DNA from: Salinirussus salinus
Lineage (GTDB): Archaea; Halobacteriota; Halobacteria; Halobacteriales; Haloarculaceae
Reading direction: 5' to 3'
Assembly: GCF_009831455.1 (NCBI RefSeq)
Contig: NZ_WOWO01000004.1
Location: forward strand, 62,001 to 126,000
DNA length: 64,000 nt
Shown: in pieces, positions 18,204-31,562 of the stretch
How positions within the stretch are numbered: position 1 is the first letter of the stretch
How the letters are laid out: the number at the start of each line of letters is the position of its first letter
The notes under the pieces: generated by a model
Database searches by the model: none
What the model saw: only the letters and a program-made list of their open reading frames with translations
Told to the model about the DNA's origin: nothing
Made by a program: the position numbers and the translations under genes

Positions 18204-19661
18204 TCAGACCGTGATGTTAGCGCTGACGGTTTTGACCTGCGTGTAGTTGTCCAGTCCTTCCAGTCCCTTGTCCCGCCCGAAGCCGCTCTGCTTGTAGCCA
18301 CCAAACGGCGAGCCTTTGCCGCCCGCTGCCCACTCGTTGATGTATATCTGCCCAGCCTTCACGTCACGTGCGAACCGGTGTGCCCGCCCGATGTCGCTGG
18401 TGAACACCCCGGCGACGAGTCCGTAGTCGACATCGTTTGCGAGTTCGATGGCCTCCTCCTCGTCGGCGAACGACAGCACCGACAGCACCGGCCCGAATAT
18501 CTCCTCCTGGGCGACCCTTGCGTCCCGGTCGTCGACCTCGAAGACGGTCGGCTCGACGAAATACCCCGCGCGGTCAAGCGTTTCGCCGCCCACGAGCGGA
18601 GCACCGGCTGCTGCCTCCCCGGCCTCGAGATACCGCTCCACCTTCTCGAACTGGGCCTCCGAGACCAGCGGGCCGACATCCGGGTCGTCCGTTCCCGGGC
18701 CGACCGACAGCCCCTCGGTCGCCGCGACCAGGTGGTCGAGTGCCTCCTCGTAGATGTCCTCGTGGAGCAGGAGCCGGGACGACGCGAGACAGATCTGTCC
18801 CGTCGTGGCGACGAAAATTCCGGCGACGGTGTTTCTGATGGCGTTTTCGAGGTCCGCATCCGGGAAGACGACACTCGGGCTCTTGCCCCCCAGCTCCAGG
18901 TGGACGGGGTTGATGTTGTCGACGGCCCGTTTGGCGACCTCCCGGCCCGTCGCGACCGAGCCGGTGAAGCTCACCCCGTCGACGTCCGGGTGGCCGGCAA
19001 GCGCCGCACCGGCACCCGACCCGTAGCCGGGGACGACGTTCAACACGCCCGGCGGGACGCCGGCCTCCAGCGCGAGCGTTCCGACTTCGAGTGCGGTGAC
19101 CGGGGTGTACTCCGCGGGCTTGACGACCGCTGCGTTCCCGGTCGCGAGCGCCGGAGCCACGCTCCGGGCGAAGAGGTCCAACGGGTAGTTCCAGGGCACG
19201 ATGTGTGCCGTCACGCCGAGGGGCTCGCGCACCGTGAAGTCGACGTGGGCCGGGCCGAGCGGGACCGACTCCCCCTGAACCTTGTCGGCCAGCCCGGCGT
19301 AGTACTCGAAGTACCGGGCACAGCCCTCGACCTCGGACTCGGCCTGTGAGAGCGGCTTGCCGTTCTCGAGTGTCACCAGCCGTGCGAGCCGGTCGCTGTG
19401 CTCGCGGACCGCTCCCGCCAGGTCGGTGAGGACTCGCCCCCGGTTCTGTGGCTCCTGGCGCCACCAGTCCTCGAACGCGGCCGCGGCGTCCGCCACGGCG
19501 TGGTCGATATCCGACTCGTCGCCCATCTCGATGTCGACGAGGGGCTCCTCCGTCGCCGGGTTCCTGCTGGTGTAGGGCTCACCGTGCCCGGGGACTGTCT
19601 CGCCCCCGACCAGCGGGCGGTACCGGTCGCGGAGGACGTCGTGCGTGACTGTCTCTGACAT
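18204..19661 (-). CDS. NAD(P)-dependent aldehyde dehydrogenase
   Basis: 485 residues from MSETVTHDV. Oxidises an aldehyde to the acid with NAD(P)+. Signatures: VPWNYPLDLF (active-site Asn region), SFTGSVATGREV (cofactor loop), LELGGKSPSVVF with the general-base glutamate and GQICLASSRLL with the nucleophile cysteine; C-terminal FGGYKQSGFGRDKG. It resembles betaine/succinate-semialdehyde-type enzymes; the substrate is unassigned. An ATTAT box at 19690-19699 sits 30-38 bases before the start, so it has its own promoter although the split phosphotransferase genes lie just upstream on the same strand. Confidence 0.92.
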   Translation of the reverse strand: MSETVTHDVLRDRYRPLVGGETVPGHGEPYTSRNPATEEPLVDIEMGDESDIDHAVADAAAAFEDWWRQEPQNRGRVLTDLAGAVREHSDRLARLVTLENGKPLSQAESEVEGCARYFEYYAGLADKVQGESVPLGPAHVDFTVREPLGVTAHIVPWNYPLDLFARSVAPALATGNAAVVKPAEYTPVTALEVGTLALEAGVPPGVLNVVPGYGSGAGAALAGHPDVDGVSFTGSVATGREVAKRAVDNINPVHLELGGKSPSVVFPDADLENAIRNTVAGIFVATTGQICLASSRLLLHEDIYEEALDHLVAATEGLSVGPGTDDPDVGPLVSEAQFEKVERYLEAGEAAAGAPLVGGETLDRAGYFVEPTVFEVDDRDARVAQEEIFGPVLSVLSFADEEEAIELANDVDYGLVAGVFTSDIGRAHRFARDVKAGQIYINEWAAGGKGSPFGGYKQSGFGRDKGLEGLDNYTQVKTVSANITV

Positions 19662-19770
19662 GCCACGAGCCGGATAGGACGCCATCCGCATAATTGTACC
19701 TGTCGTGACACCGGAGCCGCGTGCGGGCCGGGAAGTGGCGCCGGACTCCCACCCCGGCTGCTCGGTCCGG

Positions 19771-21402
19771 TCAGCGGTCCGCCACGAAGTCGGCGAACTC
19801 CCGCGGGGTCATCTCGCCCTCGTAGGGGAGGCCGACGTCGAGCAGGTTGTGCTCGTCGGTCTTCCCCGCCCAGGGCTCTGGAACCGGACTGAGCCCCGAC
19901 AGGTCGCTCGTCCAGTTCATCCCCCTGGCGTCGGCGAGGTAGTCGGCGTATCCCGACTCCGGGGCCGTCTCCTCCGGGATCTCCGACCACCCGTGGCCGA
20001 ACATGATCTGGTTTGGCATCTGCTCTTTGGCGACCCCGCCGTGCATCCGGTAGTAGAACTCCGAGGTCATCGGCGGCAGCTCGAACAGGTCCAGCTCGTC
20101 GCGGGCGAGTTCGAAGGTGCCCGTCGCGCGCAACAGCGGCACGATCATGCCGGCGTAGTAGGTCATCGCGCCGTTCATGATCTTCTCGCGTCGGGAGAGT
20201 GGCGTGGCGCGCTCGTACCACGCGGTGACGGCTTCGTTCGCCCGCTCCGAGAGGTCAAGCAGGTCGTCCATGCTCGGCCGCTCGAGCTCCGACAGCGGCA
20301 GTGGCTCGACCCCTTCCGGCTCCCGCCGGATGAAGACAGCGGCCCGTTCGACCGACTCCATGTAGTCCGAGGGATGGGTGAACGCCGTCAGCGGGACGCG
20401 GATCTCCTGGAGTCCGAGGTCGTCCGGCTCGATGACCATCGCCACCACCAGCGAGAACGGGAGGTCGCGGCTCTCGGCGATGTCGTTCCAGGGCAGGTAG
20501 GGCCGGCTGAGCCCGATCTCCCGGACGACCATCGGCTTGCCGTCCTCGACGAAGTACGGGCCGTGGTCTGCCTGGCCGACCCGGTTGTCGTAGTGCAACA
20601 GGAACGAGAACAGCTCGGCGGCGGCCATCGTCTGTCGCAGTTGCGCCCGGTCCCCGGGCTCGAATTCGGAGAGGTGGTCGGTGATGAACTCGACGACGTC
20701 GTCGCTTTTGGCCTGTGCGACGTACCGGTTCTGGCTCGGCAGGAGGTAGCCGTCCTCGTCACGGGAGGCGTAACAGAGCGCGGCCGCGGCGGTGTAGGCC
20801 GTCTTCTTCTTGTCGACGTGGACCGGGTCGTCGGCGTCCACCAGCCCGAGCTCCTCGAGCCCGATACAGCCAAAGCCCGACGGGACGAAGATGCTCCAGC
20901 CGATGCTGTTGTAGTCCGCGGCCCCCAGCTCTTCCCGGCCCTTTCGGGCGACGTCCATGAGCCCCTCGAGGCCGACCTTGTCGATGATGAGCTTCAGAAA
21001 CTCCGGCCACCGCTGGATGGCGTAGGTCGTCGAGAGGAACTCGTACTCCTGGCGGGGGATGATCTCCGACTCCCCCTCCGTCGCCCGGAGCGCGAGCAGG
21101 TCGTAGGTGTTCCAGGCGTAGTAGTTGATCAGGTCGTTGAACTCCTCGGCGGTGAACCCCCGCTTGAAGTGTTCGCGGGTGACGTTCCCGTCGAGCAGCC
21201 CGGTGTCGAGGTACGACCGCATCTGTCGCTCGCCGGCGATGCCGCCCCAGACCATGTCGCCGCCGTACACCTCCTGCATCCGGCTGTAGGGGATCTCGGT
21301 GTTGATCTGGAGTCCGTCGGCGTCGGGAGCGAACTGCTGGAGGTACCCGTAGTCCGCGAACTCGTCTTCGTGTTCCTGCACGTACTCGACGACGTCGGTC
21401 AT
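19771..21402 (-). CDS. Uncharacterised 543-residue partner of a PEP-utilising swivel protein
   Basis: I do not recognise a named domain. The protein is soluble, mixed alpha/beta and acidic, starting MTDVVEYVQEHEDEFADYGY. Notable conserved-looking segments are GGDMVWGGIAGERQMRSYLD, FVPSGFGCIGLEELGL, YDNRVGQADHGPYFVEDGKP and MHGGVAKEQMPNQIMFGHGW. Its ATG overlaps the stop of the upstream 139-residue swivel gene by four bases, implying equimolar production and probable complex formation. In phenylphosphate synthase the alpha subunit joins a long N-terminal part of unknown fold to a C-terminal phosphohistidine domain; this gene pair looks like the same unit split in two (inference from size and order). 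It would then hold the acceptor-substrate site. Confidence 0.7.
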   Translation of the reverse strand: MTDVVEYVQEHEDEFADYGYLQQFAPDADGLQINTEIPYSRMQEVYGGDMVWGGIAGERQMRSYLDTGLLDGNVTREHFKRGFTAEEFNDLINYYAWNTYDLLALRATEGESEIIPRQEYEFLSTTYAIQRWPEFLKLIIDKVGLEGLMDVARKGREELGAADYNSIGWSIFVPSGFGCIGLEELGLVDADDPVHVDKKKTAYTAAAALCYASRDEDGYLLPSQNRYVAQAKSDDVVEFITDHLSEFEPGDRAQLRQTMAAAELFSFLLHYDNRVGQADHGPYFVEDGKPMVVREIGLSRPYLPWNDIAESRDLPFSLVVAMVIEPDDLGLQEIRVPLTAFTHPSDYMESVERAAVFIRREPEGVEPLPLSELERPSMDDLLDLSERANEAVTAWYERATPLSRREKIMNGAMTYYAGMIVPLLRATGTFELARDELDLFELPPMTSEFYYRMHGGVAKEQMPNQIMFGHGWSEIPEETAPESGYADYLADARGMNWTSDLSGLSPVPEPWAGKTDEHNLLDVGLPYEGEMTPREFADFVADR

Positions 21403-21818
21403 ACCTCGAACACCTCTCCTTTGATCTGCCCCTCTGCTGTCTCGGTCTCGAACGCGACCGTTCGCCCGTCGAGTACCTCCCCCCACTCCTCGAAGAACGC
21501 GTCCGTGTCCGGCTCGCTGTCGACCAGGCCCTCCGCCGGCTCGAGACTCATGATACACGGGATGTTGTACTCCCGCGAGACGATCCCGAGGTGGCTCTGT
21601 GGCGCCCCTTCCATCGTGATCAGCCCGCCGACCCCGTTGGCCAGCAGCGGCGAGGCGAAGGCGCTCGTCCCCGCACGGACGCACCCGACCTTGTCCGAGA
21701 GGTCCTCGCTCGTCAGGTCGATCACCTCCCTGGGAGTCTGTACGTGGTTGACCGTCCCTTCGACCGTGGAGTCGATGTCTATCACGGCGATACCCTCACC
21801 CAACTTGGTCTTAGACAT
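21399..21818 (-). CDS. Freestanding PEP-utilising enzyme mobile (phosphohistidine) domain
   Basis: 139 residues, almost entirely a swivelling domain: GLITMEGAPQSHLGIVSRE (residues about 65-83) with the phosphorylatable His76, then NIPCIMSLEPAEGLVDSE. In PEP synthase, PPDK and phenylphosphate synthase this domain carries phosphate from the ATP-grasp site to the acceptor. Here it stands alone, four-base-overlapped with the 543-residue protein. The ATP-binding partner must come from elsewhere; the 30184-31545 gene is the candidate in this window. A promoter on this strand (AATACTTATC at about 21843-21852) precedes the ATG at leaderless distance. Confidence 0.88.
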   Translation of the reverse strand: MSKTKLGEGIAVIDIDSTVEGTVNHVQTPREVIDLTSEDLSDKVGCVRAGTSAFASPLLANGVGGLITMEGAPQSHLGIVSREYNIPCIMSLEPAEGLVDSEPDTDAFFEEWGEVLDGRTVAFETETAEGQIKGEVFEV

Positions 21819-21925: not shown

Positions 21926-23581
21926 TCAACTGGACTCGAGTTCCCGGCGTTTGATCTTCCCGCTGGAGGTCTTGGGCAGGTCGTCCACGAACTCGACTTC
22001 CCGGGGATACTCGTGTTTGGAGAGCTCCGACCGCGCGAACTCCCGGATGTCGTCCGCGAGTCCCTCGCCCGGCGTCGCGGATTCCGCCACCGTGACGTAC
22101 GCCTTGACGACCTCGCCGCGGGTCTCGTCGGGGATACCCACGACGCCGGCCTCCTTGACCGCGTCGTGTTTGACCAGTGCCTCCTGCACCTCCTCGGGCC
22201 CGATCCGGTAGCCGGCCGAGATGATGACCTCGTCTTTCCGGCTGACGTACCAGTAGTAGCCGTCCTCGTCCCTGCGGGCGAGGTCGCCGGTGCGGTACCA
22301 CTGCCCCTGGTAGGTGCGGACGGTCTCGTCGGGGTTGCCCCAGTAGACCCGTGTGGTCCCCGCCGAGACGTCGCTGCGCCGGACACAGATCTCGCCGATG
22401 TCGCCGTCGTCGACCTCGTTGCCGGCTTCATCCAGCAGCGTGACGCGCATCCCCGGCAGCGGCTTGCCCGCGCTTCCCGGTTTGACCTCCCAGTCCTCGA
22501 AGGAGTAGTTACAGAGCAACATCCCCGCCTCTGTCTGGCCGTAGGCGTCCAGCGGTTTCGTCCCGAACACCTCGTCGCACCACGCGACGGACTCCTCGTC
22601 GAGGGCCTCCCCGGCCGAGACGAGCACGCGGACGTCGGTGTCGTACTCCCGGGGGTCGACGTCCGCTCCCCGCACCTGCCGGAGTGCCGTCGGCGGACAC
22701 ATGAGGTTCGTCACTTCGAACTCCTCGAGGGTCTCGAGGAAGCTGACGGGGTCGAACGAGCCGCGGTACGTCGCGATCCCGGTGTCGCGGACGCCGACGG
22801 ACATCGTCGCGCCGAGGCCGTAGGACCACGCCGGCGACGCCGCCACGAAGTAGTTGTCCTCGGGCCGCAGGTCGACCACGTAGTCGTTGTAGCCGCTCCC
22901 GTGGACGATCCGTCTGTGCCGGGTGGGGACGCCCTTTGGCTGACCGGTCGTCCCGGAGGTGTACTTCAGCGTGTAGATGTCGTCCGGGTGGGTGTCGACC
23001 GTCTCGAACTCGGCCTCGTGGGCGCGGACGCGGTCGTAGGCGTCGACGGCGAACTCGCCGTCGACCCCCGCTTCCGGTGTGTCGGACCCGGGGCCGTCGA
23101 CGACCACGACCCGCTCGAGGTCTGGGAACGCCTCGTCGGGGAACGCGTCGGCGTACTCCCGGGCGAGAAACAGGACGCTCGTCCCGGAGTCGGCCAGCCG
23201 GTAGGAGAGCGCTTCGGGCCCGAACAGCGGGGTGAGCGGGACGTAGATCCGGCCGGCCTTGACCGTCCCGAAGATGGCCGCGTACAGTTCGATGCGTGGC
23301 GGCAGCATGGCGGCGACCCGGTCGGCCCGGGCGGTGTGTTCCGCGAGGTAGTTCCCGACCCGGTTGGCGGCGTCGTTGAGCGCCGCAAACGAGTACGAGA
23401 GCGTCTCTCCGGTCTCGAAATCCGCGATCCGGACCGCCGTCTCCTGGGAGTTCGCGTGGCGACCGACCGACTCCTGTGCGACGTTCAGCGACTCGCGGTC
23501 GCCCTCGGTGACGACCTCGTCCCAGGCTGCCTCCGGGTCGTGCAGGTCGGACACCGCGTCATACGTGCTATCGTATCCCAT
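21926..23581 (-). CDS. AMP-forming acyl-CoA ligase (benzoate/short-chain type)
   Basis: 551 residues from MGYDSTYDAVSD. Activates a carboxylic acid with ATP to an acyl-adenylate and then a CoA thioester. P-loop YTSGTTGQPKGVP, A5 YGQTEAGML, A7 YRTGDLARRDEDG, and A10 lysine in KTSSGKIKRREL are intact. Sequence character (ANRVGNYLAE..., APAWSYGLGA-like) suggests the benzoate-CoA ligase/acetyl-CoA synthetase-like branch; substrate unknown. Promoter candidate AATTATCAT (about 23611-23619) lies 30-38 bases before the start. It is divergent from the FMN-binding gene. Confidence 0.92.
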   Translation of the reverse strand: MGYDSTYDAVSDLHDPEAAWDEVVTEGDRESLNVAQESVGRHANSQETAVRIADFETGETLSYSFAALNDAANRVGNYLAEHTARADRVAAMLPPRIELYAAIFGTVKAGRIYVPLTPLFGPEALSYRLADSGTSVLFLAREYADAFPDEAFPDLERVVVVDGPGSDTPEAGVDGEFAVDAYDRVRAHEAEFETVDTHPDDIYTLKYTSGTTGQPKGVPTRHRRIVHGSGYNDYVVDLRPEDNYFVAASPAWSYGLGATMSVGVRDTGIATYRGSFDPVSFLETLEEFEVTNLMCPPTALRQVRGADVDPREYDTDVRVLVSAGEALDEESVAWCDEVFGTKPLDAYGQTEAGMLLCNYSFEDWEVKPGSAGKPLPGMRVTLLDEAGNEVDDGDIGEICVRRSDVSAGTTRVYWGNPDETVRTYQGQWYRTGDLARRDEDGYYWYVSRKDEVIISAGYRIGPEEVQEALVKHDAVKEAGVVGIPDETRGEVVKAYVTVAESATPGEGLADDIREFARSELSKHEYPREVEFVDDLPKTSSGKIKRRELESS

Positions 23582-24216: not shown

Positions 24217-25245
24217 TCAGTCACCCAGGTCGACCCGGACGCGGGGGTGCATCGTCTCGTACCACCCCTTCCCCTCGTGGCCCTCCCACCGACAGGTGAC
24301 GGGGAGACGGTTGATGACCGCGGTCAGCCACGGCGAGTCGAGGTCCGTCGCCTGCCAGTTCCTGTCCTCGTAGCCCATCGGCACGTACCCGGAGGGCTGC
24401 AGCGTGAATCGCTCGGTGCCGTCCTCCAGGTCGAACTCGACAGCGACCTCCCCGGCAACGTCGCCGTCGAGCCACGCGTGGAGCCGCTCGCTGGGGTCGT
24501 GGTCGTCGCTGTACTCGACCGTGATATCCTCCGGGAGCCGGATTTCCTCGCCGTCGGCGTGGTAGCCGTGGAAACTGTCGGTTATCGTCCCGTCCGGCCG
24601 GACCCCGGCCGCGACCTTGAACGAGTCCCCGGTCTCGAACCCGAGCCCGAACCAGTAGTAGCCGCCGGCGACCGGCGTCCAGTTGCGCAGGCCACCCCAG
24701 GAGTGGTCGCGGAACCCGTGGGCGTCGACCTCGTGGGACCGGTCGCCGATACCGACGCTGCCGACCATCCGACCGGGCTGGCTGTAGTGTTCCTTGTCGT
24801 GGGAGTGGGCGTCGTAGCCCCGGTCCTCCTGGTACGCGACGTGGTCGGGGGCGTGAAACCGGAGGTCGAACTCGACCGGGACCGACCGCCCCGGGTCGTC
24901 GGCAAACACCGACGCAACGTCCCCGGCGACGCCACACTCGCCCCCGCCCGAAAGCGCCCACGTCTCGTTGGGGTCGATGACCCGGTGGGACAGCTCGAAG
25001 CGCCCGGCGTCGGCGTGGAGGCCGTCACAGTCCTCCAGCGGGATGTTCTCGTCGCGGTACCAGACGGTCTCCCCGTCCCGGGCGAGATACACCCAGAGGT
25101 TGGCGCGTCGCTCGTAGGGCTGGAATCCCAGTCTGGTGTAGCCGGCCAGGTCCTCGCCGGTGAAGTGGAAGTAGTAGCTCTCGTTCCAGAGACGCCGGTC
25201 CCCCGCCTCGTGTCGAAGCTCGTCCGCTGGCTCGGCGGCGCGCAT
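24217..25245 (-). CDS. DUF7064-like (hydroxyneurosporene-synthase-like) protein
   Basis: 342 residues, beta-rich, with the sequence GRMVGSVGIGDRSHEVDAHG followed by FRDHSWGGLRNWTPVAGGYY and, near the end, CRWEGHEGKGWYETMHP. These match the lipocalin-like two-domain proteins annotated DUF7064/7065 (recalled). They accompany steroid, terpenoid or lipid catabolism genes in actinobacteria and sphingomonads, and may bind or isomerise hydrophobic substrates; no mechanism is established. A TATA-like GCTATAACT (25268-25276) gives a leaderless start. It sits head-to-tail behind the kinase gene. Confidence 0.75.
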   Translation of the reverse strand: MRAAEPADELRHEAGDRRLWNESYYFHFTGEDLAGYTRLGFQPYERRANLWVYLARDGETVWYRDENIPLEDCDGLHADAGRFELSHRVIDPNETWALSGGGECGVAGDVASVFADDPGRSVPVEFDLRFHAPDHVAYQEDRGYDAHSHDKEHYSQPGRMVGSVGIGDRSHEVDAHGFRDHSWGGLRNWTPVAGGYYWFGLGFETGDSFKVAAGVRPDGTITDSFHGYHADGEEIRLPEDITVEYSDDHDPSERLHAWLDGDVAGEVAVEFDLEDGTERFTLQPSGYVPMGYEDRNWQATDLDSPWLTAVINRLPVTCRWEGHEGKGWYETMHPRVRVDLGD

Positions 25246-25302: not shown

Positions 25303-26421
25303 TCACAGCCGGGTTTCCCCGTCGACGACCAGCGTCGCCCGCTCGGCGAGCACCGGCGGGATCAGCTCCATCATCGGGTAGGTGTCCTTCGCAGTCTCCG
25401 GACGCTCGAGGTAGGCCTCGTAGAACCGCTCACAGATCGCCGTGAGTTTGAACAGCCCCAGCGCGCGGTAGAACCGGTCGTGTCGGTACTCGATGCCGGT
25501 CCGTCGCTCGTACCGGTCGACCAACTCCGCCCGTGATGGGTAGGACGGATGCGCCATGAACGTGGAGTCCTCGCGGGTGTACTCCGTGACAGTCCCGTAG
25601 AGTTCGTGGTCGCCGTACCGCTCCTCGAACTCGGGGGTAATGGGGTCCGGGTCCGCCGCCTCGGACCAGTAGTTCAGCAGCCAGCCCAGGTCCGCCCGTG
25701 GGTTCCCTACGCCGGCCATCTCCCAGTCGAGAACCGCGGTGATCTGCGGGCTCTCCGACGGCGCCATCATCGTGTTGTCGGGTTTGTAGTCGCCGTGGAC
25801 GAGGGTCCGCTCGGGCGGCTCGGGGACGTGCTCGCGGAGCCACTCGCCGACCTCAAGCGCCCGGTCAAGATCCCGGCCCGTCGTCCCGAGGGCGTCCTCG
25901 AGGTTCCGGACGTGGGCCTCGACCGCCTCCGCCGTCGTTCCCTCGGGGACTGCCCGGACCTCCGACGGGTCGTACTCGACAGTGTGAAGCGAGGCCAGCG
26001 TGTCTATCACCAGTTCGCCGACGCGCTGTCGACACTCCGGGGTGGCAAAGCGCGCCGGCTCCTCCCCGCCAAGGATCTCGCCATCGACCCGCTCCATCAG
26101 GTAGAACGGGACCCCGAGCACCGAGGTATCCGCGCAGGACGCGACGGGCTGGGGGACCGGAACTGCCGTCCCCGTAAGGACGGACAGCATCCCGTACTCG
26201 CCCAGCACGTCGTGGAGGAGGTAGGGAACGCGCTCGTGTTCGGGAGCACACCTGAGCACCAGCTCCCGCTCCCCCCACGCGACGAACACCGTCCGGTTCG
26301 AACTCCCGCCGTCCTGTTCGGTCGCCTCGAAGGACTCCGCCGGCCCGAACTGCTCCTCGAGATACCGCTCGAGCGCCCCGCGGTCGATGCCTGTCCCGGA
26401 AGGTGTGTCTGTGTTAGACAT
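25303..26421 (-). CDS. Phosphotransferase (ACAD10/LvaA-type, APH fold)
   Basis: 372 residues from MSNTDTPSGTGIDRG. Kinase-like fold: GGSSNRTVFVAWGERELVLR (nucleotide loop and lysine/arginine strand), LVHGDYKPDNTMM with the catalytic HGDxxxxN, and VLDWEMAGVGNPRADLGWLL with the metal-binding D. It belongs with the ACAD10/11 N-terminal and LvaA proteins; LvaA phosphorylates 4-hydroxyacyl-CoA so the hydroxyl can be eliminated. That role fits a cluster with a CoA ligase, but the substrate here is inferred. The ATG at 26421 is preferred over an upstream in-frame start that would give a 40-residue low-complexity tail. Confidence 0.85.
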   Translation of the reverse strand: MSNTDTPSGTGIDRGALERYLEEQFGPAESFEATEQDGGSSNRTVFVAWGERELVLRCAPEHERVPYLLHDVLGEYGMLSVLTGTAVPVPQPVASCADTSVLGVPFYLMERVDGEILGGEEPARFATPECRQRVGELVIDTLASLHTVEYDPSEVRAVPEGTTAEAVEAHVRNLEDALGTTGRDLDRALEVGEWLREHVPEPPERTLVHGDYKPDNTMMAPSESPQITAVLDWEMAGVGNPRADLGWLLNYWSEAADPDPITPEFEERYGDHELYGTVTEYTREDSTFMAHPSYPSRAELVDRYERRTGIEYRHDRFYRALGLFKLTAICERFYEAYLERPETAKDTYPMMELIPPVLAERATLVVDGETRL

Positions 26422-26547
26422 ACTCGTGGACGCGTCGGTACGAGCAGATGACACAGCCGCCAGGAACAAGACAGTTTCGCCGAGCGTCCGCGCTGGCGGC
26501 TCATACGCCGCCACTCCGGGCCGGAGCAGGTGTGTCAACATCCCGCA

Positions 26548-26585: not shown

Positions 26586-27650
26586 ATGAAGGCAGCCGTA
26601 CTCAAGGAGTTCAAGGAACCGGTCGTCATCGAGGAGCGGGAGCGCCCGCAGGTCGCCGCCGACGACGACGTCGTGATCGAACTCGAGGCGACGGGGATCT
26701 GTCGCAGCGACTGGCACATGTGGCAGGGTGACTGGCGGTGGATGATCGACGACCTCCCGACCGACCAGATCCTGGGCCACGAACCCGCAGGGCGGGTCGT
26801 CGAGACGGGACCCGGCGTCGAGCGGTTCAGCGAGGGCGACCAGGTCGCGGTGCCGTTCAACATCGCCGACGGGTCGTGTCCGATGTGTTACTCCGACCAG
26901 TCCCACCTGTGTGAGAACAGAGTCACACCCGGGTTCTCGCCGGAGTTACCCGGCGCGTTCGCCGAGGAGATGCGGGTACCCCACGCCGACGAGAACCTCA
27001 CACTGCTTCCGGACGGGGCGTCCCCGGAGGGGATGGCCGGACTCGGCTGCCGGTTCATGACCGCCTACCACGGGATCGTCCACCGCATCGACGCCGACGT
27101 CGGCGAGTCGCTGGCGGTCCACGGCTGTGGCGGGGTCGGGCTCTCGGCGGTCCACATCGCCGACGCGATGGGGCTGGACGTGGTCGCCGTCGACATCAAC
27201 GAGGAGCCACTCGAGCGGGCGCGCTCGCTCGGCGCGGACGCGACGGTCAACGCCGGCGAGGTCGAGGACGTCCCCGGCGAGGTCCACGACATCACCGACG
27301 GCGGCGCCGACTACTCGGTGGACGCGCTCGGCATCGCCGAGACCTGCACCAACTCCGTCCTCAGCCTCGACGTCGGCGGCACGCACATCCAGATCGGGCT
27401 GACCGGCGAGGACGAGGAGGGGGTCGTGCCCGTCCCGGTCGACATCATCACGGGCCAGGAACTGGAGTTCGTCGGCTCGAAGGGGATGCAGCCGACCCGG
27501 TACGACGAACTCGTCCGGATGGTCGAGAAGGGGCGGCTCGACCCGACGAAGGTCATCACCGAGACGGTCTCGCTGGCGGACGTCCCCGGGGTGCTCGAGT
27601 CGATGACCGACTTCGACCACACCGGCGTCTCGGTCGTCACCGACTACTGA
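26586..27650 (+). CDS. Zinc-dependent alcohol dehydrogenase (MDR superfamily)
   Basis: 354 residues, NAD(P)-dependent oxidation of an alcohol. Catalytic zinc ligands Cys39 (TGICRSDW) and His65-Glu66 (LGHEPAGR) are present; the Rossmann loop is HGCGGVGLSAVH with the acidic VAVDIN that prefers NAD. The structural zinc lobe reads DGSCPMCYSDQSHLCEN: three cysteines with an aspartate where the first cysteine is normal, as seen with acidic substitutions in some archaeal enzymes. It may act before the aldehyde dehydrogenase at 18204. Divergent from the kinase gene and convergent with the regulator at 27651. Confidence 0.9.
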   Translation: MKAAVLKEFKEPVVIEERERPQVAADDDVVIELEATGICRSDWHMWQGDWRWMIDDLPTDQILGHEPAGRVVETGPGVERFSEGDQVAVPFNIADGSCPMCYSDQSHLCENRVTPGFSPELPGAFAEEMRVPHADENLTLLPDGASPEGMAGLGCRFMTAYHGIVHRIDADVGESLAVHGCGGVGLSAVHIADAMGLDVVAVDINEEPLERARSLGADATVNAGEVEDVPGEVHDITDGGADYSVDALGIAETCTNSVLSLDVGGTHIQIGLTGEDEEGVVPVPVDIITGQELEFVGSKGMQPTRYDELVRMVEKGRLDPTKVITETVSLADVPGVLESMTDFDHTGVSVVTDY

Positions 27651-28205
27651 TCACTCCTCGCGACCCTCGCCGAGGGTCCGCAGCAGGTCGTCGTGGAGCC
27701 GGAACCAGACCGTGTGGTAGGAGTCGACGTCGGTCCCGGTGACGTACTCCTCCTGGCCGTCCTGGAGCCGCTCGATGGCACCCGCAAGTGCGTCCGTGTG
27801 CCGGCTGTAGGCGGACTGCACCTCCGCTGGAAGCTCGTCGAACAGCGCTTCGACTTCCTGCTGGACCCTCGCCAGCTCCCGGGCCATCCCGTCGGCCCCG
27901 TACTCGCCGGTCTGCCAGTCACTCGCGAGGGCTTTCATCTCGCTGTCGAGTGCTTCGAACCGGTCGAAGACCCCCCGGAGCGCCTCCCGCTGGTCCGCCG
28001 AGAACCGGTCGCGACAGACCTCGTTCAGCCGCTGCTCCCCGGCGTCCGTGAGGTACCAGAACCCCTCGTCTTCGACGTACCCCTCCGACTCGAGTTCCTC
28101 GAGTGTCTCCCGGACATCCCCGTCGTCGACGACCGCGTTCAGTTCACCGGTCTCGGCGATCCCCTCCATCGAGAGATACTGCAGGACGGCGAGCGTCGTC
28201 TGCAT
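27651..28205 (-). CDS. Helix-turn-helix regulator with helical C-terminal domain
   Basis: 184 residues starting MQTTLAVLQYLSMEGIAETG. The N-terminal ~70 residues form a winged helix (ETLEELESEGYVEDEGFWYL, LTDAGEQRLNEVC), and the rest is a long helical region with a C-terminal YHTVWFRLHDDLLRTLGEG. It is the only obvious regulator inside the metabolic island and probably senses one of its intermediates. An inverted repeat at its start codon suggests autoregulation (see 28203-28248). Confidence 0.7.
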   Translation of the reverse strand: MQTTLAVLQYLSMEGIAETGELNAVVDDGDVRETLEELESEGYVEDEGFWYLTDAGEQRLNEVCRDRFSADQREALRGVFDRFEALDSEMKALASDWQTGEYGADGMARELARVQQEVEALFDELPAEVQSAYSRHTDALAGAIERLQDGQEEYVTGTDVDSYHTVWFRLHDDLLRTLGEGREE

Positions 28206-28248
28206 ACACCCGGATCGCACCATTCGGATATTAATTCTGGTGTATGTG
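28203..28248. promoter_or_regulatory. Inverted repeat flanking the TATA box of the regulator gene
   Basis: CATACACC (28203-28210, covering the start codon on the opposite strand) and GGTGTATG (28239-28246) are perfect inverted arms around an A/T-rich box (TATTAATT, 28228-28235). The geometry is that of a repressor-operator pair covering TATA and start. Confidence 0.55.
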
Positions 28249-28366: not shown

Positions 28367-29020
28367 TCACTCGCCGGCCGGGCCGGGCGGCCAGGACAGC
28401 GTCTTGAACCCGTCCCGGGTCAGGAGACCGTCGCTCAGGTGCGGGGTCGCGTTCAGCTGCACGGCCGTGTCCGAGGTGCCCCAGCGCAGGTCGAACAGGG
28501 CCGTATTGTTGACGGGCAGGACCGTCTCGGTCACCGACCCGCCCAGCGCGTCCATCGTCAGCGCGAGCACCGGCACCGCCGACGTGACCGCCAGCACCGT
28601 TCCGTCCTCGGGCTGGTCGTCCCGGACCGCTTCCTTCGCCTCCAGCACCCGACTCCGGACATCGGCCGGCGTCTCCCCCAGGTCGAGGTCGCCCTCGACC
28701 CACGCCTGCGCCCACTCCCGCTGTCCCAGCCCCTCCTCGATGCAGCACTGCAACGCTTCCTTCGGCCAGGGAACGTCGTCGAGTTCGGGCAGCTCCCGGA
28801 CCGGGACATCCCGGCCGGAGACGAGGTCGAACACCTCCGACAGCACCGCGACGGTCTCGCGGTGCCGGTCCGACGTCCCCGTGTAGACCGCCTCGACCGG
28901 CTCCGGCTGTCGGCAGAGGTGGGTCGCCAGCAACTCCGCCTGTAACCGCCCGGTCTCGCTTATCGTGTACCGCCCCTCGTCCTCGTGGAGGGCCGCGCGT
29001 CTGACGACGTACGCTTGCAT
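28367..29020 (-). CDS. Degenerate histidine phosphatase (phosphoglycerate mutase-like)
   Basis: 217 residues from MQAYVVRRAALHEDEGRYTI. The overall layout is that of the histidine phosphatase family: first strand, TISETGRLQAELLATHL (normally 'LTxxGxxQA'), VYTGTSDRHRETVAVL (normally 'SSPLxRAxxTA') and VLAVTSAVPVLALTMDALGG (normally 'VxHGGxxR'). The catalytic RHG is RRA here, and the second histidine of SHG is replaced (TSA), so it is unlikely to use the standard phosphohistidine chemistry. It may instead bind a phosphorylated metabolite or protein, which would fit a phosphotransfer cluster. Lies directly after the regulator on the same strand (about 160 bases). Confidence 0.72.
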   Translation of the reverse strand: MQAYVVRRAALHEDEGRYTISETGRLQAELLATHLCRQPEPVEAVYTGTSDRHRETVAVLSEVFDLVSGRDVPVRELPELDDVPWPKEALQCCIEEGLGQREWAQAWVEGDLDLGETPADVRSRVLEAKEAVRDDQPEDGTVLAVTSAVPVLALTMDALGGSVTETVLPVNNTALFDLRWGTSDTAVQLNATPHLSDGLLTRDGFKTLSWPPGPAGE

Positions 29021-29157
29021 GTCACCCACTGTCACGACCGGCCGGGATAAGTCCGGGGGCGTGCACCGAACGCGATGGCGGGCCGCTGTGTGTCCTCGCA
29101 CCGGCGGGCGACGCGTCCTGTTTCCCGGGCCCTCTCCGGAACCGGGCGGCTGGTGGG

Positions 29158-29235: not shown

Positions 29236-30123
29236 ATGGACGACCCGAGGATCCTCCTGACCAACGACGACGGGATCGACGCCGCGGGCCTGCTGGCGCT
29301 GAAGCGGGGGCTCGCCGATGTCGGCTCGGTGACCGCCGTCGCACCCCAGACGAACATGAGCGGGACGGGTCGCGCGCTCTCGCTGGGTCGGTCCCGGGCA
29401 CTGTCCGGGGAGCTGTCCATCGACGTCCACGAGGGCGACAACGGGTTCTCGTTCGACGTCCCGTACACCGACCACGACAACGGCTACGCCGTCGACGGGA
29501 CGCCCTGTGACTGCGTCGTGGGCGGGCACGCCCTCGACCCGGCGCCCGACCTCGTGGTGAGCGGCTGCAACCCCGGCGCGAACACCGGCCAGTACACCGT
29601 CTCGCGGTCGGGGACCGTCAGCGCGGCGATGGAGGGGGCACTGCTCGGCACCCCGTCGGTCGCCATCTCGATGGACACCCTCGGGAGCAGGGGCGACCTG
29701 ACGGTCGATGACTTCGACCGGGCCAGCCGGCTCACCACGACACTGGTCGAGCGGGCCATCGACCACCAGGTTTTCTCCGGTGTCGACTTCCTCAACGTCA
29801 GTATCCCGGACCCGGACGAGCCGGTTCGGGGGGTTGCGGTGACCCGCCCCGACACGCGGTACGGACTCGAGGCCGTCGAGGGTGGGGAGTCCTCGTTCCG
29901 GATCCGTGCGGCGAAACCCGACGAGACCGGCGAGGAGGTCGACTCCCGTGCCGTCCCGACGGACCGTGCCGCACTCGCGCAGAACTTCGTCGCGGTCTCC
30001 CCGTTTCACCTTCCGACCGAACCGACGCGGACGGAGGCGGTCGAGACCGTGGCCCGCGAGCTGTCGGCGGAGTTCGGGCGAACCCAGGCCGTTGACCCCA
30101 CACCCGGATCCCGCGGCGAGTGA
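29236..30123 (+). CDS. surE: 5'/3'-nucleotidase SurE, paralogue 1
   Basis: 295 residues. Metal-dependent phosphatase of nucleoside monophosphates and other phosphomonoesters. Metal-binding ILLTNDDGIDA at the N-terminus, VAPQTNMSGTG, VVSGCNPGANTGQ and SRSGTVSAAMEGAL are all intact. Compared with the paralogue at 32730 it has an insertion of about 20 residues after SLGRSRALSG (an acidic DVHEGDNGFSFDVPYTD segment) next to the active site, which suggests a changed substrate. Its location between the phosphatase-like protein and the PEP-synthase-like protein suggests a role in handling phosphorylated intermediates. Confidence 0.93.
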   Translation: MDDPRILLTNDDGIDAAGLLALKRGLADVGSVTAVAPQTNMSGTGRALSLGRSRALSGELSIDVHEGDNGFSFDVPYTDHDNGYAVDGTPCDCVVGGHALDPAPDLVVSGCNPGANTGQYTVSRSGTVSAAMEGALLGTPSVAISMDTLGSRGDLTVDDFDRASRLTTTLVERAIDHQVFSGVDFLNVSIPDPDEPVRGVAVTRPDTRYGLEAVEGGESSFRIRAAKPDETGEEVDSRAVPTDRAALAQNFVAVSPFHLPTEPTRTEAVETVARELSAEFGRTQAVDPTPGSRGE

Positions 30124-30183: not shown

Positions 30184-31545
30184 CTACTCCAGGAGCGTGA
30201 GCTCGCCGCCGGTCCCGTCGACGCGGACCCGCGTCCCGGGCTCGACGGTCCGGCCGCCGACTTCGGCACGTCCCGCGCTCTCGTCGACGTCGAACCCCTC
30301 GCAACCGACGACGGCCGGCGTGTCGAGTTCGCGAGCGACGATCGCCGCGTGGCTGGTCGTCCCCCCCTCGGCGGTGACGACCGCCTCGGCGGCTTTCATC
30401 CCCGGGAGGTCCGAGGGCGAGGTCCGCTCCCTGGCTAGCACGACGTCGTGTCCCGCCTTCGCCCGCTTGACCGCCGCGAGCGTCTCGAACCGGAGCTCCC
30501 CGACCGCCGACCCCGGGGCGGCACCGAGCCCGTCGACCGTCACGCCCCGTGGGTCGTCTGTCCCCGCCCCCGCCGGCGTCGAGCCGCCGCCGGTCGTTAT
30601 CGGTCGGGCCTGGAGGACGACCACGTCGCCGTCGCTGATCGCCCACTCGATGTCCTGTGGTCCGTCCCGACGCGTCTCGATCTCCCGGCCGATGTCGACG
30701 AGGGTCCCGATCTCGTCCCGGTCGAGCACTTGCTCTTCGCGCTTCCCCTCCGGCACCGGCCGCCGGACGGTCTCACCGTCCGGCGCGCGCTCGACCATCA
30801 CGCGTTTGGTGTTGACCGTCTTCTCGAGCAGGCTGTCCGTGTCGCGGTCGACGACGTAATTGTCGGGCGAGACGGCCCCGCTCACGACCGCCTCCCCGAG
30901 CCCCCACGCGGCCTCGACCGTCATCTCGCGCGCCTCGGTTGCGGGGTCGACGGTGAAGAGCACGCCGCTCTTGTCGGCCTCGACCAGTTCCTGGACGATG
31001 ACCGCGATCCCGGCCTCGTCGGCCCGGTCGTGCTCGGCCCGGTAGGTGAGCGCCCGGTCGGTGAACAGCGACGCCCAGCAGTCTTTCACCCGCTGGAGCA
31101 CCGCCTCGGCCCCCTCGACGGCGAGATAGGTCTCCTGCTGGCCGGCGAAGCTGGCGTCTGCCCCGTCCTCGTCGGTCGCCGAGGACCGTACCGCGACCCG
31201 GGGTTCCCCCATCGCCGCGTACGCCTCGGTCACCGCCTCGACGTGCTCCGGCGGGAGCTCTGCGTCCCGGACGAGCTCGCGGGCTTCCCGTCCCGCCTCG
31301 GCGAGTGTATCCGGGTCCGGGTCGGAGGTGTCGAAGTCGAGCGCCGCCGCGAGGTCCGACGCGAGCCCCGCCTGCCGGACGAAGGAGTGGTACGCCTCCG
31401 TCGTGAGGACGAACCCGTCCGGGACGGGAAACCCGGTCTCCCGCAGCTCGACGATGCTCGCCCCCTTCCCGCCGAGCACACCTGCCGGGTCACCGTCCAC
31501 CGAACCGCCAGGGCCGATCTCGTGGACGAGGGCGTCACTACTCAT
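30184..31545 (-). CDS. PEP-synthase-like protein: ATP-grasp plus phosphohistidine domain, no PEP barrel
   Basis: 453 residues from MSSDALVHEIGPGG. N-terminal PPDK-type ATP-binding domain: LGGKGASIVELRETGFPVP (residues about 24-42), AVRSSATDEDGADASFAGQQ (118-137), and VDPATEAREMTVEAAWGLGE (199-218). The C-terminal swivelling domain has VTAEGGTTSHAAIVARELD with His399. The C-terminal TIM barrel that binds PEP/pyruvate is missing, so it cannot be a normal PEP synthase. Enzymes of this type (rifampicin phosphotransferase, phenylphosphate synthase) use ATP to phosphorylate another acceptor. It may energise the freestanding swivel protein at 21399 or act alone. An alternative ATG five codons upstream (31560) exists. 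Confidence 0.88.
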   Translation of the reverse strand: MSSDALVHEIGPGGSVDGDPAGVLGGKGASIVELRETGFPVPDGFVLTTEAYHSFVRQAGLASDLAAALDFDTSDPDPDTLAEAGREARELVRDAELPPEHVEAVTEAYAAMGEPRVAVRSSATDEDGADASFAGQQETYLAVEGAEAVLQRVKDCWASLFTDRALTYRAEHDRADEAGIAVIVQELVEADKSGVLFTVDPATEAREMTVEAAWGLGEAVVSGAVSPDNYVVDRDTDSLLEKTVNTKRVMVERAPDGETVRRPVPEGKREEQVLDRDEIGTLVDIGREIETRRDGPQDIEWAISDGDVVVLQARPITTGGGSTPAGAGTDDPRGVTVDGLGAAPGSAVGELRFETLAAVKRAKAGHDVVLARERTSPSDLPGMKAAEAVVTAEGGTTSHAAIVARELDTPAVVGCEGFDVDESAGRAEVGGRTVEPGTRVRVDGTGGELTLLE

Positions 31546-31562
31546 GGTATGTCCATACATGC
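31545..31562. promoter_or_regulatory. GTATG-CATAC palindrome at the start of the PEP-synthase-like gene
   Basis: GTATGTCCATAC (31548-31559) is a five-base dyad around TC, overlapping the alternative starts. Its half-site resembles the arms at 28203-28248, so one regulator could act at both. Confidence 0.4.

Follow-up and report, generated by a model that had tools for sequence, protein, structure and literature searches.

Gene organization of the locus

The window analysed here, a 64,000-nucleotide stretch of the Salinirussus salinus genome, carries on its minus strand genes for an aldehyde dehydrogenase (ALDH), a 543-residue protein, a stand-alone phosphohistidine swivel domain, an AMP-forming acyl-CoA ligase, a DUF7065-like protein, an APH-family phosphotransferase, a small helper and an ATP-grasp protein, with a zinc-type alcohol dehydrogenase (ADH) running divergently (Table 1). 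We refer to the 543-residue protein P0002 as SUB, to the swivel P0003 as SWV and to the helper P0021 as ACC, and use the same names for their relatives. The original prediction, made from the DNA letters, had described P0002 as a 543-residue protein joined to the swivel gene by a four-base overlap. The open reading frame is real and is read on the minus strand (21402..19771); the plus strand over the same bases holds an open frame of no relation. The overlap is ATGA, common to the end of the swivel gene (...GAG GTA TGA) and the start of P0002 (ATG ACC GAC). A longer GTG start at 21684 is also available in the same frame, and the ATG at 21402 is favoured because of the ATGA overlap and the bacterial homologues. 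P0002 is strongly acidic in composition (D+E 18.2%, K+R 8.3%), which points to a haloarchaeal host. At the far end of the gene group, the ribonucleotide-reductase-small-chain-like protein adjoining P0004 could represent an R2-like ligand-binding oxidase instead of a true R2.

Table 1. Features of the locus in the window, and the second SUB gene of the same genome
Feature	Position	Strand	Evidence or remark
P0008, aldehyde dehydrogenase, downstream neighbour	18204..19691	-	PF00171 E 1.2e-168
P0002 (SUB)	19771..21402	-	543-aa ORF; candidate substrate-binding subunit, new family
SUB motif II, residues 270-283 (HYDNRVGQADHGPY)	20554..20595	-	n=54 sequences
SUB motif I, residues 106-121 (RATEGESEIIPRQEYE)	21040..21087	-	mostly invariant or near-invariant, n=54 sequences
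P0003 (SWV), stand-alone phosphohistidine swivel domain, 139 aa	21399..21818	-	PF00391 E 4.6e-9
Codon of predicted phospho-accepting His76, P0003 (GAPQSHLGI)	21591..21593	-
P0005, AMP-forming acyl-CoA ligase, upstream neighbour	21926..23581	-	PF00501 E 8.7e-67
P0006, DUF7065/CrtC-like	24217..25245	-	PF23213 E 1.7e-10
P0007, APH-family phosphotransferase	25303..26427	-	PF01636 E 8.8e-43
P0009, zinc-type alcohol dehydrogenase, divergent	26586..27650	+	PF08240/PF00107
P0021 (ACC), 190-aa helper, winged-helix and helical	27651..28223	-	homology to Rhodococcus P0014
Histidine-phosphatase-superfamily protein beside ACC	28367..29101	-	PF00300 E 7.1e-15
SurE nucleotidase	29236-30123	+	between helper and ATP-grasp gene
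P0004, ATP-grasp and own swivel, candidate phosphate donor	30184..31560	-	PPDK_N E 1.6e-94; PEP-utilizers E 1.3e-21
Codon of predicted phospho-accepting His404, P0004 (GGTTSHAAIVA)	30349..30351	-
Ribonucleotide-reductase-small-chain-like protein, adjoins P0004	31669-32601	-	PF00268 E 3e-8, just over cut-off
P0011, SUB paralogue	locus L007 (contig C2), 9973-11616		56% identity to P0002

Sequence and predicted structure of SUB

As the original prediction had it, P0002 has no recognised family: beyond chance, it matches nothing in Pfam (no family at E<=1), in NCBIfam (no family at E<=0.1) or among PDB sequences (two chance matches only, E 1.6-1.7). The profile search proposed there as a check was extended to relatives. 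Searched against NCBIfam, 54 members of the SUB family gave chance matches only (best E 0.048; 9 of 54 members), the best match of the family profile among PDB sequences was EF-Tu at E 0.69, and no known enzyme family emerged. Comparison of a predicted structure with the PDB, suggested in the same place, gave no clear fold match either. The AF2 model of P0002 (pLDDT 81.8, pTM 0.82; low confidence at residues 483-530) is mixed helical, with strands in the second half. Foldseek returned no PDB entry for it at E<=0.001, a missing match being no proof of a new fold, and the best match in VIA was an Hsp70 (Z 4.0, rmsd 11.0 over 82 residues). No RPH entry is among the structure matches listed for P0002, where absence from the VIA list excludes nothing. 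A fold search with a fused Gordonia protein returned MarR-type winged helices, all in its helper part and uninformative on SUB.

Two motifs highlighted at the outset, around residues 172-187 and 453-472, are both present but conserved only in part. The best-conserved stretches lie elsewhere, at R106-E121 (motif I, RxTEGxSxxIPRQEYE) and H270-Y283 (motif II, HxDxRxGxxDxGPY), and in motif II H270, D272, R274, G276, D279, G281, P282 and Y283 are invariant across 54 sequences. All charged residues checked in both motifs are retained in the paralogue P0011. By conservation, the active site of SUB is best sought in motifs I and II.

Distribution of SUB and its paralogue

A scan of genome-collection contigs with a six-sequence SUB alignment gave 212 pattern matches, of which 136 encode a relative. 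The best 80 of these 136 are the bacterial loci counted out of 80 below. Identity over the best segment is 31-37%, and all are labelled as bacterial, mostly Actinomycetota and Pseudomonadota. A tblastn search of plasmids found eight records, six from Rhodococcus and one each from Paraburkholderia and Methylibium. Among archaea of the same class and family, SUB was found in its own genome only (1/292 and 1/146, respectively), and it is therefore probably an import, which would since have been adapted to high salt and duplicated. A weak match in one other class genome (G234, E 2.4e-4) was set aside as chance, the frame being a carbamoyl-phosphate-synthase-like one of 1141 aa (named by eye). In a quick tree, P0002 and P0011 share a long branch (2.89) beside the clade of separate-gene loci (support 83), the positions of long branches being unsure. 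One SWV-SUB contig labelled as a Klebsiella pneumoniae MAG branches with environmental Proteobacteria and is probably mis-binned.

The paralogue P0011 is encoded on a different contig of the genome and has an acyl-CoA dehydrogenase gene on one side and a 3-hydroxyacyl-CoA dehydrogenase gene on the other. No swivel gene adjoins it, and it may share P0003 and P0004 with P0002. A third match in the genome (contig C1, E 0.033) was dropped as chance.

Conserved coupling of SUB to a swivel domain

The view of P0002 as a conserved subunit coupled to the swivel is borne out in bacteria. Locus patterns were built from SUB alone and neighbours counted by direct search; some of the ORF picks behind the locus lists were mechanical and include false ORFs. 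A swivel gene is present in 79/80 loci, adjacent and upstream in 59, covalently fused to SUB in 15 and placed otherwise in five, the one remaining locus having no upstream DNA. Fusions follow the order SWV-SUB(-ACC), with the swivel N-terminal of SUB, and Rhodococcus opacus B4 combines swivel, SUB and ACC in a single chain of 793 aa. These fused proteins show that SWV is the swivel that works next to SUB, on its N-terminal side.

P0003 is 39% identical to a stand-alone swivel of Rhodococcus and has the conserved, predicted phospho-accepting histidine that is a feature of dikinases. By a strict pattern, GAP[EQ]SHLGI is retained in 84 of 90 SWV ORFs; of the six misses, one is out-of-frame DNA and five have, by eye, a serine-histidine at the same place. 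The archaeal genome encodes three clear swivel domains, in PEP synthase, P0004 and P0003. Among 282 haloarchaeal genomes, a full-length match to P0003 occurs in its own genome only. Weak partial matches (E 1.7e-6 to 9.6e-5) occur in 20 others, 18 of them in stop-free frames of at least 748 aa, as expected for the swivels of PEP synthases, and the two exceptions are a 582-aa frame and one with an internal stop.

The ATP-grasp partner and its helper

P0004 carries PF01326 and PF00391 and ends after the swivel, with no C-terminal pyruvate/PEP barrel in Pfam. It thus has the make-up of VadK, with an ATP-grasp domain, a histidine-bearing swivel and no barrel. The genome encodes two PPDK_N proteins, P0004 and a full PEP synthase; the two are 53% identical over their common part, and P0004 is PEP-synthase-like, not PPDK-like. 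Of 294 phylum genomes, 210 have a match to P0004 at E<=1e-60, and among the matches listed all but P0004 itself lie in frames of at least 748 aa, as expected for full PEP synthases.

Bacterial loci encode an ATP-grasp/PPDK-like protein in at most 65/80 cases, an upper count because at least one of those found elsewhere in the locus (L089) is a PRK08296-type protein and not a partner. The gene lies downstream on the same strand in 57 loci and elsewhere in eight; it is absent from nine, meaning that it was not found though the contig continued beyond 1.5 kb, and six loci run into a contig end. PPDK_N and swivel are present, and a barrel family is absent at Pfam E<=0.01, in all four bacterial partners scanned. 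Barrel queries drawn from four PEPS/PPDK proteins matched strongly only their own set and a separate PPDK in one locus (L038); the few weak matches (E 1.7e-8 to 2.3e-5, one at 1.7e-4) come from queries that may include swivel residues.

The helper P0021 was found in its own genome only among 282. It shares 29% identity with Rhodococcus P0014 (E 7e-14), and the fused R. opacus protein resembles it in its C-terminal part (E 2e-14); the model of the fused Gordonia homologue has a MarR-like winged helix in its helper part. ACC is encoded in 69/80 bacterial loci, adjacent in 57 and fused in 12, with six lacking it and five cut by a contig end. Across the order of R. jostii, ACC occurs in 55/296 genomes and SUB in 9/298. 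Of 30 ACC loci from this order, 20 have a PPDK-like gene in their 1.5-kb flanks and four have SUB there. Helper and donor thus occur as a pair without SUB and look like a portable phosphate-donor unit. SUB was also considered as a possible VadK acceptor in this order, and was rejected on the finding that most ACC-bearing genomes are without it.

From what is observed, namely the genes and their domains, the conservation of the histidines and of the co-location, and the fusions that occur in nature, we infer that P0002 is probably the substrate-binding subunit in a swivel-domain small-molecule dikinase of several components, charged via P0004/P0021 and P0003. P0004 might instead be unrelated, the phosphate of SWV-SUB coming from the ordinary PEP synthase of the host or another donor, given that P0004 lies 8.4 kb from SWV, is of PEP-synthase type and aligns well with the Rhodococcus PPDK-like partner only over the later ATP-grasp part and the swivel. 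Such an arrangement seems unlikely to us: most bacterial loci encode an ATP-grasp/swivel partner (up to the 65/80 given above), P0004 has the make-up of that partner, and the helper is 2 kb away. We accordingly keep P0004 as the candidate donor while noting what counts against the dikinase reading, namely the distance just given, the genes on both strands in between and the PEP-synthase likeness of P0004, together with the nine bacterial loci that lack a PPDK-like gene and the missing swivel beside P0011.

Proposed phosphorelay

In the proposed reaction, P0002 would bind a small catabolic compound with a hydroxyl group, be it an alcohol, a phenol or an enol, and position its oxygen, to which P0003 would bring a phosphoryl group carried on His76. 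The phosphate would be drawn from ATP via His404 of P0004, with help from P0021, most likely in a two-step His-to-His relay from ATP to His404, on to His76 and then to the substrate. The phosphorylated product would be passed to the neighbouring CoA ligase, dehydrogenases and phosphatase. P0002 would be the component that decides the substrate, as originally surmised, a role suggested by its place in the module and by its large size together with its lack of homology to PEPS/PPDK domains. The assignment as substrate subunit draws on context, since SUB has neither sequence homology to PpsA/HpeH-type domains nor a solved fold match.

We prefer a relay over two histidines because both swivels have a conserved histidine and VadK charges the histidine of its own swivel. 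In a single-histidine variant, P0003 itself would swing into the ATP-grasp site of P0004 and then to SUB, leaving the P0004 swivel as a bystander or in the service of another acceptor. The closest characterised systems are reported to work in this way, the swivel of HpeH acting with HpeI (PMC12167813), yet the variant appears rather doubtful here. The histidine motif of the partner swivel is kept in 69 of 74 PPDK-like ORFs (70 loci), and the five misses can be put down to incomplete frames or a wrong call: L094 accounts for three, pieces of a single gene broken by a frameshift, L059 for one, a truncated ORF, and L089 for one, its PRK08296-type protein. In addition, VadK, a truncated PPDK of the same make-up, is reported to autophosphorylate its swivel at His422 (PMC13400623).

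If the dikinase reading holds, a family that has no name in Pfam or NCBIfam and is encoded in at least 80 bacterial loci and the one archaeon described here gains a testable role.

Metabolic neighbourhood and candidate substrates

The genes around SUB recur in part across bacteria, with relatives of the CoA ligase P0005 in 20/80 loci and of the ALDH P0008 in 29/80. The locus of R. oxybenzonivorans reads ALDH, ADH, AMP-ligase, swivel, SUB, ACC and PPDK-like, and the window holds the same set. A pairwise comparison of P0006 with a Paraburkholderia neighbour gives weak similarity (E 2e-6), and phmmer found no match between P0006 and two DUF7065-like representatives of the bacterial loci. The histidine-phosphatase-superfamily protein and SurE possibly act as product phosphatase and in AMP clean-up. 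As a whole, these neighbours suggest a hydroxylated intermediate of catabolism on its way to aldehydes and CoA esters.

A plasmid of Methylibium petroleiphilum PM1 has SUB and swivel relatives in the vicinity of genes for cobalamin-binding, AMP-ligase, MeaB and methylmalonyl-CoA-mutase-family proteins; this would be the 2-hydroxyisobutyryl-CoA mutase region of fuel-ether breakdown. A plasmid of Rhodococcus pyridinivorans P23 has three SUB-like and three swivel stretches, one PPDK-like gene and adjoining genes for a biotin-dependent carboxylase, as if a single donor supplied several substrate modules. Different SUB proteins may take different substrates, since one of these relatives lies near a B12-dependent mutase and the other cluster beside a carboxylase.

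This setting also bears on two other roles for SUB. The proposal of VadK as a regulatory histidine kinase (PMC13400623) raises the idea that SUB is no subunit of a small-molecule kinase and is itself regulated through phosphorylation by SWV. We hold this to be very unlikely, as SUB is placed among CoA ligases, dehydrogenases, P450s and phosphatases and has a patchy presence, plasmids included, that is typical of catabolic genes. SUB and SWV could also perform another chemistry, for instance removing or migrating a phosphate made by the APH-family kinase, which neighbours them in the window, as does the histidine-phosphatase-superfamily protein. With APH of the window type in only 1/80 loci and a second APH type in 6/80, this too is highly improbable, and a substrate subunit of a dikinase remains our preferred reading of SUB.

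Link to bacterial microcompartments

Genes for bacterial microcompartment (BMC) shells are present in 47/80 loci, and in 35 of the 49 loci longer than 20 kb. All belong to the separate-gene type (47/65), with none among the fused type (0/15). Further companions in the 80 loci are DUF7065-like proteins (50), HAD phosphatases (50), BMC-type ALDH (44), EutJ-like proteins (36) and lactate/malate-dehydrogenase-like proteins (26). In our view, the shell linkage makes small aliphatic alcohols or diols somewhat likelier substrates than phenols. The archaeal genome itself has no shell gene (PF00936, E<=0.1).

In its description, the MIC1 metabolosome is presented without a signature enzyme (PMC4207490), and a 2021 catalogue gives many metabolosome types as having no obvious one. 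Going by that description of MIC1 (PMC4207490), the bacterial SUB loci resemble it in shell, AldDH, lactate/malate-dehydrogenase-like protein, zinc dehydrogenase, phosphatase and EutJ-like protein; the archaeal genome differs in having no shell gene. Among the open-licence PMC papers listed in literature searches, no title or abstract describes a dikinase in MIC1. The SUB module is a candidate feeder of a microcompartment class described in print without a signature enzyme.

Comparison with known dikinases and phosphorelays

The nearest functional parallels are HpeHI, CreHI and PpsAB, in which, as proposed here, a separate ATP-grasp component is used and a swivel histidine serves a small catabolic substrate (PMC12167813). 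For HpeHI, conversion of ATP to AMP is reported, and His581 of HpeH is reported to be essential (PMC12167813). The systems differ in layout. In HpeHI, CreHI and PpsAB, swivel and substrate domain form one chain with the swivel C-terminal, whereas here they are two genes or a swivel-first fusion; the ATP-grasp partner there has no swivel, whereas P0004 has its own. In RPH, ATP-grasp, substrate-binding and swivel modules are likewise combined, but in one chain. Placing SUB directly with PpsA/HpeH-like or RPH-like proteins was rejected at the level of sequence homology: hhalign of 86 SUB domains against the substrate parts of 13 PRK08296-type proteins gave a probability of 0.2%, whereas the swivel control against the C-terminal swivels of the same proteins gave 94.4%. 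HpeH and PpsA probably belong to the PRK08296 type, judging by their architecture, and the 13 were taken from 20 extracted proteins after leaving out seven that were full PEPS/PPDK-like, ACC-type, or short or doubtful frames.

VadK (Rv1127c) of mycobacteria is, like P0004, a truncated PPDK with ATP-grasp and swivel, and has an adjoining partner gene, Rv1126c (PMC13400623). It is reported to act as a kinase that regulates the methylcitrate cycle (PMC13400623). By position, ACC can be likened to Rv1126c, given the PPDK-like neighbour in 20 of the 30 ACC loci. VadK differs in this regulatory role, the present truncated dikinase being coupled instead to a swivel and to a substrate subunit.

The proposed passage from one histidine carrier to another also recalls the phosphotransferase system (PTS), which differs in using PEP and not ATP, in serving transport and in having HPr in place of a swivel. 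PTS EI alone is reported to phosphorylate rifampicin in vitro (PMC13099321). As a tentative extension, possible though short of probable, the module may form an ATP-driven, PTS-like catabolic phosphorelay that P0002 and P0011 share and that has a MIC1-like role in bacteria. A truncated dikinase with its helper would then charge a free swivel carrier for interchangeable substrate modules of a new family, the one free carrier in the archaeon would serve both P0002 and P0011, and in bacteria the module would supply the upstream enzyme that a MIC1-like metabolosome is missing.

Among the open-licence PMC papers listed in literature searches, no title or abstract describes a stand-alone swivel with a separate substrate subunit. 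Going by its gene content, the P0002 module would work like HpeHI, CreHI, PpsAB and RPH without being filed with them, and is best placed as a swivel-domain small-molecule dikinase whose substrate module belongs to a new family. If correct, this placement adds a further dikinase architecture, built from a free swivel, a non-homologous substrate module and a donor with a histidine of its own.
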